Below, piece by piece: positions 32,620 through 39,375 of a stretch of 64,000 bases of DNA (within the stretch, counting starts at the first letter, position 1; each line of letters opens with the position of its first letter). A program made the translations under genes and the position numbers. The notes under the pieces were generated by a model. It saw only the letters and a list, made by a program, of their open reading frames with translations. It was not told the origin of the DNA and did no database searches. The DNA comes from a bacterium (GTDB lineage: Bacteria; Joyebacterota; Joyebacteria; Joyebacterales; Joyebacteraceae), in contig JALGZD010000219.1 in NCBI GenBank assembly GCA_025782395.1, positions 124,001-188,000 of the forward strand. Reading direction: 5' to 3'.

Positions 32620-34572
32620 CTACTCCTGAAGGAACTCCATCACCCACTGGGGTCTCGGCGGCGGCGAGCTGTCAAGCTTCCTCAACCAGTCCTTGGTCGT
32701 GAGGGCCTTTTCCCCCACCGTCTTGAACTCGTAGAATGAAGAGATCACACCTCCGAAGAGCAGTCTGTCTTCTCCCTGCCCGACACTCACGTAGATCAGG
32801 TCAGGATCCCCCACAGCGACCTCGATGGTCGTTCCCGTTCCGAAGTCGTGGTAGACCGAAGCGACGAATGCCACGCTTTCAGTGGGCACTCCGCGCTGCT
32901 CCGCGCGCCCGGTTCCCCCGAGGAAACCCGGGCCGGACGCCGGATCCATAGGGCCGTCCGACGCGGCGCCCAGCTGCGTGGTGTCTCCGACAGGCGCGAC
33001 ACATGATCGTTCGACAGAGACGATGAACTCGCGATAGGCATCCATCCTGGCTGAGATGGAGTCGTCGAGCAGGTAGTTCTCCCACAGCTTGTCTCTGAGA
33101 TTATCGAGAAGATCTCTGAGCCGGACATAGAGCTCCGGGTACGGCTCGACCATGAGACAATGACTCTCGACCTCTGAGAGCGCGTCTCTGAGACTGAATG
33201 CCGCATCCATGTGCCCGGCAGGTGCTCGCCGTATGTCCGCCCACGCGGCCGCTGCTGTCGATAGCATCCTTGTCTCCCACGCGCGCGTCCTTGCGAAATC
33301 GGGGAGTTGGTTTCTCGACGGCTCGAAGAGCGCGGAAATCGCGTGGAGCCAGCTCCAGTACAGATCACTCGTCCAATCCCCGTACGTAGCCTGCTCGAGC
33401 TCGAACTCGAGCTCGTGGTATCCCACCCGGTAGATCTCCCGGCCGAACGCGTCCTGGTCATCGAGCACCGATCTCGCGGCCCTCGAGCCGAGAAGCGCCA
33501 TCAGGCTCAAGGCAACCGAGGGCGCCTGCTCGGATGTGCTTCCCAGTCTTCGGAAGCCCTGTCTGTAGTGGAAGTCCCTCGGACACAGCAAGCGAAGACC
33601 TCTCAGCTCGTGTGTTTCGAAATGGGGAGGGGCAATCTCCCCCACTCGCTCCGCGAATCGCGCGACGAGCTCCTGGTCGGAGAGAAGCTCAATGTTGAAT
33701 TCCTCACCGAAGACGTCGTCCGCGATCTCCATATAGTCAAGGACGGTTGGGTCGCCCGCCCCCCCACGAAAGAAGAGCAGCGGGTCATAGATGAGACTCC
33801 AGAGCTCCAACCAGTCACCCGCCTCTTCCTCAAGAGCGCGCACGACGAGCAGAGCCTGAATCGTGAGACGGTAGTCCTCGACTCGGCCTTCGGGTAGAGC
33901 GAATGCCATTCTGCTGTACCACGTGACCGCCCTGTGAAATCTCTCGAGGCGTTCGCTCGAGGCGTAGTGGCCCTCAGAGATGTAGTGCGAATAGTCCTCG
34001 CCCGGCCCCGCCACACCGTCCAGCGGTGTGGCACCCATAATGGGCGAGAACCCTACTACTGCTCCTTCCTCGACGAGCGCGAGTTCCCTCTCGACAAGTC
34101 CGAGTGCCGTCTCGGATGGGAAGAACTCCGGGTCCAGCAGGCTCAAGCCGACCGAAAAGAACGCGACATTGAGCCGGGCCGCCTCTCTGACAAATGAGTC
34201 GGTCGCGCGCAAATACTGGTCCTCACTTAGCCGCACCATCTCCCGTGACAGCTCCTCGAGCCGCTCGTAGAGCTCGTTTCCCTCCAGTGTGAGAAGGACC
34301 TCGTCGAGGAACAGACGCGTCGTTCGCAACACCACGTCGGCGGTGATGAATGGGTTGACGCCCTGTTCACGGAGCATACGATAGCTCTGCGCGGGATTCG
34401 GCGCTTCGCCGGAGACAGCAACGAAACCCCGCTCGGAGAGAGCCCTCAGGCTCGAATCGGACAGACCGGAGATATCGGCGACCTCGGCGTTGCCGATTGT
34501 TGCGCTGCCTGTTACCAGAACGAACAGGCACACGATCTTGATTGCAACCGCAGCCAAGCGCGACAGACGCAC
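32620..34572 (-). CDS. DUF3160-domain secreted protein
   Basis: A 650-residue exported protein. The GTG at 34572 was chosen because AAAGGAG lies seven bases before it and the signal peptide then starts promptly (VRLSRLAAVAIKIV). The body is mostly helical and matches DUF3160, a large domain of unknown function: early NPFITADVVLRTTRLFLDEVL, central DPLLFFRGGAGDPT, and the C-terminal VASVYHDFGTGTTIEVAVG beta part. Family members are secreted or periplasmic; no catalytic residues are established. It follows the XRE-cupin gene by about 146 bases. Confidence 0.85.
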   Translation of the reverse strand: MRLSRLAAVAIKIVCLFVLVTGSATIGNAEVADISGLSDSSLRALSERGFVAVSGEAPNPAQSYRMLREQGVNPFITADVVLRTTRLFLDEVLLTLEGNELYERLEELSREMVRLSEDQYLRATDSFVREAARLNVAFFSVGLSLLDPEFFPSETALGLVERELALVEEGAVVGFSPIMGATPLDGVAGPGEDYSHYISEGHYASSERLERFHRAVTWYSRMAFALPEGRVEDYRLTIQALLVVRALEEEAGDWLELWSLIYDPLLFFRGGAGDPTVLDYMEIADDVFGEEFNIELLSDQELVARFAERVGEIAPPHFETHELRGLRLLCPRDFHYRQGFRRLGSTSEQAPSVALSLMALLGSRAARSVLDDQDAFGREIYRVGYHELEFELEQATYGDWTSDLYWSWLHAISALFEPSRNQLPDFARTRAWETRMLSTAAAAWADIRRAPAGHMDAAFSLRDALSEVESHCLMVEPYPELYVRLRDLLDNLRDKLWENYLLDDSISARMDAYREFIVSVERSCVAPVGDTTQLGAASDGPMDPASGPGFLGGTGRAEQRGVPTESVAFVASVYHDFGTGTTIEVAVGDPDLIYVSVGQGEDRLLFGGVISSFYEFKTVGEKALTTKDWLRKLDSSPPPRPQWVMEFLQE

Positions 34573-34718
34573 GTGTCTGCTCCTTTCACCCGCCCGTTCC
34601 GAGCGGAGTGCGCGCAGCATCTACACATCCTCCCACAGGTTTCTCACGCGCTCCTGTGCGAACCACAAATCGGAGACGCTCTCGACCACCCGGTGAGGAG
34701 AAGGGAAACCCGAACTCC

Positions 34719-35288
34719 CTAGGGTGACAGCACGCCTTCCGACGTCGTCACCCAGAATGCCCGTGTGCCGTCCGAACCGAGCTTCTCGATCCGGTGAGGC
34801 ACGCTGGCTCTGAACTGAATGCAGTCACCCGGGCCCAGTTCGTACTCATCGCCGCCGACGATGATCTTGAGCTTCCCCGACTCAACGATGAGAATCTCCT
34901 CGCCTTCGTGCGGGCGAGTCTGCAACGGCCCTGACTCGATATCCTGAAGCTCCACCACTCGCAGCCGCCCGGCCGGTATCCCGGTAGTCAGGAAATCGAC
35001 CTCAGCCACGGTCTTGTCGCCGTCTCTGACGACATGATGGGGTCGCTCGTGCTTGCGCACTACTGAAACACTCGGCAGCTGTTCCTCTTCGACGAAGTAG
35101 GTCGCCGGCGTGCTCAAAGCGCGCGCAATGCGCAGCAGCGCTCCAACCGTCGGTGACGTCCTTCCACGCTCGATCTCCGATATGTGCGTGGGAGACATCC
35201 TGGAACCGTCTGCGACCTGTTTCAGGGTCATACCCCTGGCCAGCCTCTCGAGCTTCACCCGCCGCCCCAGTTCTGCCTTGTCAAGCAT
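34719..35288 (-). CDS. XRE-family regulator with cupin sensor domain
   Basis: A 189-residue regulator. Residues 8-62 form a helix-turn-helix of the XRE type (RGMTLKQVADGSRMSPTHISEIERGRTSPTVGALLRIA). Residues 110-180 are a cupin (RPHEGEEILIVESGKLKIIVGG, then GPGDCIQFRASVPHRIE), the usual ligand-sensing part in regulators of amino-acid, polyamine or osmolyte genes. The dehydrogenase operon nearby is a natural target, but no operator was identified. A 240-base spacer without visible genes precedes it. Confidence 0.9.
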   Translation of the reverse strand: MLDKAELGRRVKLERLARGMTLKQVADGSRMSPTHISEIERGRTSPTVGALLRIARALSTPATYFVEEEQLPSVSVVRKHERPHHVVRDGDKTVAEVDFLTTGIPAGRLRVVELQDIESGPLQTRPHEGEEILIVESGKLKIIVGGDEYELGPGDCIQFRASVPHRIEKLGSDGTRAFWVTTSEGVLSP

Positions 35289-35530: not shown

Positions 35531-36721
35531 TCAGACGTGGGTCTTCTCTCCGACGCGAACGGCACGGGTTTGTTCACGCTCACGAGCTGGTTCAGGCGCC
35601 TCGTCCGAGCGGTCTATCCCCAAAGCCGACTCGTATTCCGACAGGATCTCCTGCGTGACCCTCAACCACGCGTAGCGTTTCACGGCCTCATGCGCTCTTG
35701 CTGTGAGTCTTTCTCTTATGTCGGGCCTTCGCGCCAGCCTGATCACGGCGTTCGCGATAGAGTCCGGTGATCCCGGCGTGACGAGAAGCCCGGTTCGCTC
35801 CCCCTCGACGACTTCGCGGTAGCCCGATATGTCGGATGCAACGATGGCCGCACCGGCCGCCATCGCCTCCAGAAGCACGATCCCGAAACTCTCGCCACCG
35901 GTCGCCGGAGAACAGAAGACGTCTGCGCTCGCGTAGTAGCGAGCGAGCAGATCACCCGAGACGAATCCGGTGAACTCGATGTGTTCGCGACACCGCTCCA
36001 ACATGTGGGATTCGTAGTAGCTCGCCAGCGGCCCGCCGCCGACAACGACAAGCCTCGCGTTCGGCACCGCGTCCAGAATCGCGGGCATCGCTTTCAGAAG
36101 GAACTTCGTTCCCTTGCGCGGCTCCATCCTCCCGACAAAGAGGATGTTGAATCCCCCGTCGTCGAGCTCGGACAAGGGCCTGGCAAGCTCGAATCGCTCG
36201 ACGTCGACGCCATTGGGAACAATGCTGTATTCGCCGGGGAAGTAGCGCGACGCCGTCTGCCGCGCCGCGCTCGAGACGGCGATGCGTCTTCTGAGCCGCC
36301 GCACGTAACGGTCGAGCAGCGGCCTGAATACCCGGTATCCCAACGAACTGTCGTTGCTGGCGTGGAACGTCCCTACGACGGGGACGTCAGCCTGCCCCAG
36401 CGCCGACAGACACAGAGTGGGCATGAGCGGTTCGTGCAGGTGCAGGACGTCAAACCTCTGTTCATCGAACACGCTTCTCAGCCGGCCGGCCATCTTAAGG
36501 TCCAGTGCAATGGGACAGATGGAACCGTTGGCCGGCACGGAGATCGCCCTGCCGATCCGGATGACATCGTCCTCGCACGGGGAACCGCCGTCTCCGAAAG
36601 TCGTCGTCACCACGCGGACGTCGTGTCCAAGACTGGAGAGCTCCCTGTAGGTATGATAGACGTGTTCGGTCACCCCTCCGGGGTAAGGATGGAACGCGGG
36701 TGTGACGATGCCTATCTTCAT
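35531..36721 (-). CDS. GT4-family glycosyltransferase, PimA-like
   Basis: A 396-residue GT-B fold enzyme. The N-terminal half opens KIGIVTPAFHPYPGGVTEHV, the C-terminal half has LFVGRMEPRKGTKFLLKAM and the donor-binding ATGGESFGIVLLEAMAAG with the EX7E glutamates. It resembles PimA and related mannosyl- or glucosyltransferases that glycosylate membrane lipids or phosphatidyl-inositol. It lies 84 bases beyond the MFS-acyltransferase fusion, so a shared glycolipid pathway is likely. The last 25 residues are charged and probably disordered. Confidence 0.9.
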   Translation of the reverse strand: MKIGIVTPAFHPYPGGVTEHVYHTYRELSSLGHDVRVVTTTFGDGGSPCEDDVIRIGRAISVPANGSICPIALDLKMAGRLRSVFDEQRFDVLHLHEPLMPTLCLSALGQADVPVVGTFHASNDSSLGYRVFRPLLDRYVRRLRRRIAVSSAARQTASRYFPGEYSIVPNGVDVERFELARPLSELDDGGFNILFVGRMEPRKGTKFLLKAMPAILDAVPNARLVVVGGGPLASYYESHMLERCREHIEFTGFVSGDLLARYYASADVFCSPATGGESFGIVLLEAMAAGAAIVASDISGYREVVEGERTGLLVTPGSPDSIANAVIRLARRPDIRERLTARAHEAVKRYAWLRVTQEILSEYESALGIDRSDEAPEPAREREQTRAVRVGEKTHV

Positions 36722-36805
36722 GACCCGTCCTCTGATCGTGCTGCGGATCCCAAGCGCGCCCGTTGCTGCCTGATGCGGTGCCGCCGTTGCGCCCTCATGT
36801 CGTCG

Positions 36806-39061
36806 TCACGGCGCCCAGATCGGCTGCAACATACACCACTGATCCGGGTAACGCCCAATGTACCGCTCGATAATGCCGGCGAGTCGCTGCGTGTACGTTT
36901 TCACAGCCGCGTCGAAATCATCACCGGCATCAGTCTCTATTGGTCGCTCGATGAGCAGCTCGTAGCTTCCATCAGATCTGCGAATGCAGAAACCGGGAAC
37001 GATCGGCGCCCCGCTTCTCAGAGCAAGGTACGCCGCCCCTCTCGGCAGAACCGTCCGCTTCCCGAAGAACTCCACGTCGACACCATCGGCACCGACAAGC
37101 CTCTCCCCCAGAACGAAAACGATCTCGTTCCTTCTCAGCGCCCGCCAGACCTTGAGCGTCTGACCCAGCCGAATAACGTTGACCCCTCCGCGCTTCCGCA
37201 AGGAAGAGACGGCGCTATCCGATGCATCTCCGGAGACCGGCTCAACGATCGCCGAAAGGCCCGGCAGTCCGTCCGCGTCCGCCATAGCCGCTCCACCCAT
37301 GTCCCAGCTGCCAAGATGAGCCGAGACGAAGATGACGCCCTTCCCCGCGCTGAGCGCCTCCTGAACATGCTCGAGCCCTCGAAATCTCACCCTATCGCTC
37401 ACACTGTTCCTGTGCCGACCGCCCAAACCAAGGAAATCCGCATAGTACCGCCCGTAGCTTCTGAACATTCTCCTGGCCAGCACTTTCGCTTCCCTGCTGT
37501 CCGGCGGCTTCCCGAGTACGTGCCCGGCGTTCTCTTGTGCATACCTCCGCTTAGTCTTGAGGACGTACGCGGCGAGATCTGAGAGAGGTACCACGATCCA
37601 GTAACTCATGCGCCGCGGCAGCGTCGCCGCCAGTCTTGCAGTCACGCGAAGAAGTGGATACGCGTTCAGGAGATTGAGTCTCGACGTGTCGGCAAGAAGA
37701 AAAACCGAGATGCAGGCGTAACCCATCGAAACGAGACCGACGGCGACCAAGAGGTATCGAGGGCCGATCACGTCCACAATCACGCCGGACAGAACCCCCG
37801 CGATGCCGAACGCGGCCTTCGACAACATGTCGCGAAAACCAAATGCCTTACCGACACTCTCCTTCGGCATCGTCTCGTGCACCACCGTGTCACAGGTGAT
37901 CATGGCCGGCGCTACGAAAACGCCCATGAGGAGAACACCTGCTGAGACAAGGATGATTGTCGACGACTGCGCGATCCCGATGATAACGGCACCGCAGAGG
38001 AAACAACTCACGGCGATAATGGCTCGACGCGGTGTGCGTGAGAAGAAATGCCCGACCAGAACGGATCCCACAAGCATTCCCACGCCGGCAAGCGAGAGCA
38101 GGATACCCAGCTGCGCCGGTCCCATCGCAAACTCGTTCCTGACAAGGATGGGCAGTGCAACCATGACGAACCCGACGACGAACATGAGACTCGACAGGGA
38201 GACTGTCGAGTAGATGACTATCGCGTGCCCCTTCATCTGAGCTATGCCGTCCTTGAGATCTGCGACCAGCCTCTGGTATGCAGAGCTGATCACCTCGACT
38301 TCCTCTCCTATCGGCGCTGCGATCTCGTGGCCGATACGCACTGCGTCTTCCCTGAACTCCACACGGCTGTGCGCGTGAAGCGCGTGGCGCGCCGCCTCCC
38401 CGACGACTCTTCTCCTGGCGGCCAGTTCCTCCTCGCGCCCGGCCGCCACTCCCGAGATACCTCTCAGGGTCATGAATGCGACGAAGATACCCGAGACGAC
38501 ATAGGTAGCCGAGTCCGCGAAGAACCCGACTGTAAAACCGAACCGCTCGACGAGAAGTCCACCGCCGGCCGGACCAACTATGATCGCGACCACACCCGCG
38601 ATGTTCAGAAGCGAATTGGCGGACATGAGGTTGTCACGTTTCACGATCTGCGGAAGCGCGGCCGACTTGGCCGACAGATAGAATCGATTGATGGTGAACA
38701 CGAGGAATATGAGGATGTACACCATCACCATCGAGCGTGAGACCAGCGCAATCGCGGCGACGAGCACTGCCCGTATGAAGTCGGACGCTATCATCAAGGT
38801 GCGACGGCTGATCCGGTCTGCATAAACCCCTGAGATCGGACCGATGAACAGAACGGGCGCACTGGCCAGAAGCAGGATCTTCGAGAACTCAAGACCGCTT
38901 GTCTTCTCACCACCGGAGATCGTGAAGATGAGCGCGGTCAGAGCCATCAGGTTCAGATGATCGCCCACCTGAGACGCCAACGACCCCGCCCAGAGCAGCG
39001 TGAAGTCTCTGTTGTGGACGAGTTCCGCGAACCCTCTCCTCTTGTCGGCTGTCCCCGTCAT
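36806..39061 (-). CDS. MFS transporter fused to LpxL-type lipid acyltransferase
   Basis: A 751-residue two-domain protein. Residues 1-440 are a major-facilitator transporter with about twelve helices (opening FTLLWAGSLASQVGDHLNLMALTAL) and a long central cytoplasmic loop at 205-270. Residues 460-751 are a lysophospholipid/lipid A acyltransferase (LABLAT) domain with the HX4D catalytic motif in AHLGSWDMGG and the ERLVGADGVDVEFFG loop, corresponding to the family ERD...FFG motif. The join is continuous, with no frame break. It may acylate a lipid and flip it across the inner membrane. The ATG overlaps the PhaR-like stop. Confidence 0.9.
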   Translation of the reverse strand: MTGTADKRRGFAELVHNRDFTLLWAGSLASQVGDHLNLMALTALIFTISGGEKTSGLEFSKILLLASAPVLFIGPISGVYADRISRRTLMIASDFIRAVLVAAIALVSRSMVMVYILIFLVFTINRFYLSAKSAALPQIVKRDNLMSANSLLNIAGVVAIIVGPAGGGLLVERFGFTVGFFADSATYVVSGIFVAFMTLRGISGVAAGREEELAARRRVVGEAARHALHAHSRVEFREDAVRIGHEIAAPIGEEVEVISSAYQRLVADLKDGIAQMKGHAIVIYSTVSLSSLMFVVGFVMVALPILVRNEFAMGPAQLGILLSLAGVGMLVGSVLVGHFFSRTPRRAIIAVSCFLCGAVIIGIAQSSTIILVSAGVLLMGVFVAPAMITCDTVVHETMPKESVGKAFGFRDMLSKAAFGIAGVLSGVIVDVIGPRYLLVAVGLVSMGYACISVFLLADTSRLNLLNAYPLLRVTARLAATLPRRMSYWIVVPLSDLAAYVLKTKRRYAQENAGHVLGKPPDSREAKVLARRMFRSYGRYYADFLGLGGRHRNSVSDRVRFRGLEHVQEALSAGKGVIFVSAHLGSWDMGGAAMADADGLPGLSAIVEPVSGDASDSAVSSLRKRGGVNVIRLGQTLKVWRALRRNEIVFVLGERLVGADGVDVEFFGKRTVLPRGAAYLALRSGAPIVPGFCIRRSDGSYELLIERPIETDAGDDFDAAVKTYTQRLAGIIERYIGRYPDQWCMLQPIWAP

Positions 39062-39375
39062 ATCGCCCCGACTCCCGCCTTCTCAACCTCCGCTACATCG
39101 CGGGCGGCTTCATTGCCGTGCTCGAGCGATCCGCGGAGCGCGAGAAGCACTCGCTCAGCCAGCTGAGCTCTGGCTTCGTCATCCGGGTGGCGTCTCACGT
39201 ACTCCAGGATCGCTTGGATCATAGTGACCGCTGAGATGTCCTCACCCGTTCCCTTAAGCTCAACATGAACATCCTCGCCGGAGAGCACCAGCTCGGAAAG
39301 CTCAAGAAGGGTGATAACCTTTCTCTTGTGCGTGTCGTAGAGACGCCTGTTCGAGTACTTGAGGATGAACCTCAA
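39058..39375 (-). CDS. PhaR-like DNA-binding domain protein
   Basis: A 105-residue protein with the KYSNRRLYDT signature of the N-terminal DNA-binding domain of PHA/PHB accumulation regulators, followed by the expected TLLELSELVLSGEDVHVEL strand-helix. No PHA synthase or phasin is in the window, so here it may regulate envelope lipid genes instead. The start is TTG, five bases after TAGGAG. It overlaps the MFS-acyltransferase gene by four bases and leads the operon from a promoter at 39430-39458. Confidence 0.8.
   Translation of the reverse strand: MRFILKYSNRRLYDTHKRKVITLLELSELVLSGEDVHVELKGTGEDISAVTMIQAILEYVRRHPDDEARAQLAERVLLALRGSLEHGNEAARDVAEVEKAGVGAI

Follow-up and report, generated by a model that had tools for sequence, protein, structure and literature searches.

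The closest described counterpart of the system considered here is the mycobacterial gene set pgsA-patA-pimA (Rv2612c-Rv2611c-Rv2610c) for phosphatidylinositol mannosides (PIM). In its acyltransferase, PatA, the charge relay is formed by H126 and E200, mannose is contacted by E149 and R164 and inositol by H284, and the transfer was severely impaired by mutation of E149, R164 or H284 (PMC4792965). In another related system, LplT-Aas, the transporter LplT imports lysophospholipid for the acyltransferase Aas, the two forming a complex via the large central loop of LplT, and fused open reading frames exist (PMC11416262). Among bacteria, inositol lipids had been regarded as mostly confined to Actinobacteria and Spirochaetes before they were shown in Bacteroidetes, whose inositol-lipid cluster BT_1522-1526 encodes inositol-phosphate and phosphatidylinositol (PI)-phosphate synthases in a Gram-negative background, with no patA/pimA-type genes mentioned in the available part of that source (PMC9246714). 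The locus compared here with these systems lies at 35,531-39,375, on the minus strand, of a 64-kb window (the whole stretch of DNA analysed, from contig JALGZD010000219.1), and is a single operon transcribed in the order PhaR-like DNA-binding protein, fusion of a major facilitator superfamily (MFS) transporter with an acyltransferase, and family 4 glycosyltransferase (GT4).

This operon probably, although by no means certainly, makes and moves an acylated PI glycoside, that is, a PIM-like lipid. PI would be supplied by the PI-phosphate synthase (PIPS) and the inositol-phosphate synthase (INO1), whose genes lie on the same contig outside the operon, the PimA-like GT4 would put a sugar on the inositol at the cytoplasmic face of the membrane, the PatA-like domain, anchored at the same face by the MFS domain, would acylate this sugar, and the MFS domain would flip the product. 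The locus resembles the mycobacterial set in the order of its PatA- and PimA-like genes, in the presence of both synthases in the genome and in the catalytic residues, and differs from it in the fusion of PatA to an MFS transporter, in the PhaR-like gene upstream and in a genome that also encodes lipid A synthesis. The first-pass annotation had proposed an acylated-glycolipid unit, which is supported, and as one of the PatA/PimA kind, by its phylum-wide occurrence, by PimA and PatA as the nearest solved relatives, by the PI genes and by the same gene sets in unrelated genomes.

The three genes stand on one strand as annotated, including the 751-residue fusion, by both coordinates and Pfam matches. 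In the phylum sample (20 genomes, all in one family, the named relatives being Candidatus Eisenbacteria metagenome assemblies), the fusion was found in 18 genomes, while the two without it are 57% and 73% complete. It is full-length, with 50-88% identity across the family and no in-frame stops, and is therefore more than a chance joining; in G010 and G016 its parts lie on different contigs. A single PhaR-domain gene is present in every one of the 18 genomes, and it adjoins the fusion wherever the contig permits the test (in G011 the two are split at contig ends), and the GT4 gene follows the fusion in all of them except G001. Thus, the trio, sought in other genomes, is conserved phylum-wide, and the objection that the operon might not be conserved falls away. 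The four-base ATGA overlap between the PhaR-like gene and the fusion is present in the window, yet it occurs in only 4 genomes, the ATGA overlap of the fusion with the GT4 gene being commoner (12 genomes; in the window this gap is 84 nt).

The fusion has Pfam matches to PF07690/PF05977 (MFS_1/MFS_3) at residues ~17-459 and to PF03279 (Lip_A_acyltrans) at residues 476-749 (144 bits). The best solved match of ACYLTRANSFERASE in a search of the PDB was mycobacterial PatA, with 86 bits vs 46 bits for LpxM, and the best NCBIfam match of the fusion was the PatA model PRK07920, whose score of 157 bits is below the curated cut-off of 209, for which reason the domain is named PatA-like only. The AlphaFold model (mean predicted local distance difference test score, pLDDT, 75) has two parts, an acyltransferase and an MFS part; Foldseek matched them with PatA at a TM-score of 0.86 and with MFS transporters at about 0.8, respectively, both normalised to the target. 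The intact HX4D motif of the annotation was confirmed as HLGSWD (residues 582-587), and when the fusion is aligned with PatA of M. smegmatis, it retains the equivalents of Y80, Y83, H126, D131, E149, R164 and E200. Glutamate at the E149 position was found in 10 of the 19 PatA-like proteins of pimA-bearing loci vs 0 of the 21 of pimA-less loci, with a Fisher p = 1e-4 that overstates independence because the sequences are related. By sequence, residues and predicted fold, the domain is PatA-like and not, as had been annotated, LpxL-like.

That the fusion merely performs the usual secondary acylation of lipid A, as LpxL/LpxM do, and is joined to an MFS pump by chance, is accordingly very improbable. 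LpxL and LpxM share the PF03279 fold, and the genome makes lipid A: in the suggested check for absence of lpxA-lpxD/lpxK these genes proved to be present, and a complete cluster (lpxD, lpxC, lpxA, recognised from sequence, lpxB, a DUF374 gene, kdtA and lpxK) is encoded on G000:C38. However, the fusion is absent from this cluster and sits on another contig, PatA outscores LpxM in both sequence and fold, and the cluster has its own gene for a DUF374 protein, a group that includes the secondary lipid A acyltransferase LpxJ. The two further PF03279 proteins of the genome (G000:C67 and G000:C34) have HX4E, Asp at the E200 position and no E149 equivalent in the alignment, C67 also bearing the LpxL-like C-terminal WMHRRW, whereas the fusion has HX4D and Glu at both the E149 and E200 positions and lacks the residues that the two paralogues have in common. 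Therefore, of the objection that a full lipid A set uses the fusion as LpxL, the part concerning completeness stands, while the set itself is separate. As side observations, the third PF03279 protein (L058:4650-5636 (-), on C34) is encoded among phospholipid genes, in a cluster that includes plsY, gpsA and a GT2 gene, and lpxC and fabZ are joined and frameshifted in this assembly (L085:2394-3577 (+), G000:C38), probably by a sequencing error, lpxC being unbroken in the relatives.

The identity of the third gene as a PimA-like GT4 was upheld, PimA being its nearest solved relative, with a full-length match of 220 bits in the PDB search and 74 bits for the next solved protein. The GT4 shares 38% identity with PimA of M. 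smegmatis (35-40% in the family, 25-36% in the non-actinobacterial relatives found; the GT4 of L170, with 83%, served as positive control) and retains the catalytic and phosphate-binding residues G16, H118, R196, K202, E274 and E282 of PimA, as well as N63. Assignment of this glycosyltransferase to the GPMC system was rejected, the NCBIfam match being 77.6 bits vs a cut-off of 400. As to the supply of PI, a CDP-alcohol phosphatidyltransferase gene precedes an inositol-3-phosphate synthase gene on the same contig, and this putative PIPS-INO1 pair was adjacent in 11/11 family genomes checked. The former protein scores 166 bits with the archaetidylinositol-phosphate synthase model (cut-off 180) and 139 bits with that of PI-phosphate synthase (cut-off 170), the better fit to the archaetidylinositol-type model setting it apart from the Bacteroidetes cluster; the latter scores 523 bits with its own model (cut-off 638).

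Relatives of the fusion and of the GT4 were sought in 386 genomes (the phylum of G120 being represented by one genome), and PatA-like genes were often found to adjoin the nearest GT4 relatives outside the phylum. The gene orders were PIPS-INO1-patA-pimA-patA (L155, L161), INO1-patA-PIPS-patA-pimA (L175, L176), PIPS-patA-pimA (L167, L170) and patA-pimA alone (L153, L156, L158, L159, L162, L164, L165). A separate MFS gene accompanies patA and pimA in L113 and L154 (patA-pimA-MFS) and in L118 (pimA-MFS-patA), and in L198, from the same family as L154, an MFS gene adjoins PIPS, with patA-pimA about 7 kb away. Of the MFS proteins in each of these four genomes, the linked one matches the MFS part of the fusion best, at 97-112 bits, the others reaching about 50 or less. 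In a tree with unlinked MFS decoys, the linked transporters group with the fused one and are separated from most decoys with support of 94/94, and of 83/78 at the narrower node that leaves out the last decoy as well. No MFS-PF03279 fusion was found outside the family among the 386 genomes surveyed. The apparent second fusion in G374 was ruled out, for its MFS_2-type transporter gene (L103:4692-6878 (+)) ends in a stop just before a PatA-like gene; this may be a second, independent transporter-PatA pairing. A strong MFS match in G301 was also set aside, as it adjoins Rnf genes and not lipid genes.

These neighbours bear on what the transporter half may carry. Export of an unrelated drug or solute, with the fusion incidental, would agree with the antiporter and efflux families as the best generic MFS models for the fusion, but is quite improbable in view of the related MFS genes found with patA/pimA or PIPS in four other genomes, each being the best match there. 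The main rival on the direction of transport is remodelling in place of export, by which the MFS domain would bring a lyso- or de-acylated glycolipid inward from the outer leaflet for re-acylation by the fused acyltransferase, as in LplT-Aas. In both systems an MFS transporter is coupled to an acyltransferase of the membrane surface and has a large central loop (here ~75 residues, about residues 200-275), and the MFS domain of the fusion has weak matches to Aas-type (65 bits) and LplT-type (30 bits) models. Nevertheless, remodelling is rather unlikely, because a linkage with a PimA-like GT4 and with genes for PI synthesis suggests that the lipid is made de novo, the acyltransferase is of the PF03279/PatA-like type and not the PlsC of Aas, and Pfam finds no acyl-ACP synthetase domain in the fusion. 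The annotated flippase thus gains weight from the related separate MFS genes that accompany patA/pimA elsewhere, while transport as such stays a prediction. It may be, as a tentative proposal falling somewhat short of the probable, that the MFS domain serves specifically to flip acylated PI glycosides, that synthesis and flipping are joined in one polypeptide, that a lipopolysaccharide (LPS)-bearing phylum makes PIM-like lipids and that the separate MFS genes beside patA/pimA in other phyla encode the same flippase.

Several observations weigh against a PIM-like product of this operon. G001, which is 99% complete, lacks a close GT4 while retaining the fusion; in this genome (L006 / L087) the GT4 was lost from the interval that separates fusion and cupin gene, with the PhaR-like gene, the fusion and the PIPS-INO1 pair retained. 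The neighbourhood within the phylum is by itself weak evidence, because ~13 genes around the operon keep their order, among them those for OPT transporter, TPR, EamA, DUF401, cupin-helix-turn-helix (HTH) and DUF3160 proteins. The PI synthase pair is ~70 kb off and outside the operon, in which the locus again departs from the mycobacterial genes, as it does in two sets of residues that constitute the main doubt on the substrate. Thus, PimA D253 and K256, which we take to be guanine contacts, are Gly and Leu in the GT4 and are retained only in the actinobacteria-like loci L170 and L167; because they are not kept, the donor may not be GDP-mannose, and the sugar may be one other than mannose. At the position of PatA H284 the fusion has Cys743, a cysteine that is also found in PatA-like proteins of L155, L161 and L162, those of L155 and L161 being PI-linked. 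PimA Y9 and Y62 are both Ala in the GT4. The backbone of the acyltransferase tree is weak and cannot place the fusion, so the tree was used only to show that the genome's own paralogues lie elsewhere. Finally, PatA-like genes are also paired with monogalactosyldiacylglycerol (MGDG)-synthase-like enzymes in other phyla (L104, L106, L109); in L104 the order is MFS-patA followed by the MGDG-synthase-like gene. The same machinery might consequently act on another acceptor or sugar, giving an acylated glycosyl-diacylglycerol or a non-mannose glycosyl-PI, in agreement with the unkept guanine-side residues and with the MGDG-type pairings. This is unlikely given that the PatA residue set is retained, the mannose-contact Glu included, and that PIPS and INO1 genes are present in all the family genomes checked.

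The PhaR-like protein is the probable regulator of the operon. It matches PF07879 (PHB_acc_N) with 58 bits (cut-off 25), the sole such match in the genome, and TIGR01848 with 44.8 bits vs a cut-off of 109; beyond PF07879 there is no Pfam match in its 105 residues for a C-terminal domain binding polyhydroxyalkanoate (PHA). Since the DNA-binding domain is present alone and the TIGR01848 score is far below its cut-off, sensing of PHA or lipid, and with it the annotated lipid-responsive regulator, is not supported by sequence. The HTH-cupin gene downstream keeps its order across the family at 0.1-1.6 kb from the GT4 gene. In part of the family a 460-aa radical S-adenosylmethionine (SAM)/SPASM protein is encoded between the GT4 and cupin-HTH genes (L047:11859-13241 (+), and at the same site in L046, L048, L049, L053 and L059); it is absent from the window and belongs to no NCBIfam family by score, the best being 113 bits against a cut-off of 500. 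The features of the locus are collected in the table.

Table. Features of the operon and its 3' neighbours in the 64-kb window.
Feature	Position	Strand	Details and basis
PhaR-like DNA-binding protein	39058..39375	-	105 aa, TTG start; PF07879
MFS-PatA-like fusion protein	36806..39061	-	751 aa; Pfam, conservation, predicted fold
MFS domain of fusion, residues 1-455	37697..39061	-	PF07690/PF05977, Foldseek, tree with unlinked MFS decoys
PatA-like acyltransferase domain of fusion, residues 456-751	36806..37696	-	PDB PatA match, PRK07920, Foldseek
HX4D motif of fusion, H582-D587 (PatA H126-D131)	37301..37318	-	Alignment
E607 of fusion, PatA E149 equivalent (mannose contact)	37241..37243	-	Alignment; role from PMC4792965
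R622 of fusion, PatA R164 equivalent	37196..37198	-	Alignment; invariant
E653 of fusion, PatA E200 equivalent (charge relay)	37103..37105	-	Alignment
PimA-like GT4 glycosyltransferase, 396 aa	35531..36721	-	PDB PimA match, catalytic residues
HTH-cupin regulator, 3' of GT4, operon membership uncertain	34719..35288	-	PF01381 + PF07883
DUF3160 protein, after cupin-HTH gene, order kept through phylum	32620-34620	-	

Both PatA-PimA systems and fusions of a transporter with an acyltransferase are already known. The literature searched, whose coverage is limited, described neither their combination nor its occurrence in an LPS-bearing phylum, and had no mention of Eisenbacteria together with phosphatidylinositol. 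To our knowledge, the flippase for acylated PIM (AcPIM) in tuberculosis-type bacteria has not yet been identified, and the fusion is for this reason a testable lead. A PIM-type acyltransferase fused to a transporter, and a transporter of the same MFS family beside patA/pimA in unrelated genomes, single out a protein for testing; if the proposal is true, an MFS transporter would answer the AcPIM flippase problem, and the range of PIM-type lipids would include a bacterium that has lipid A genes.

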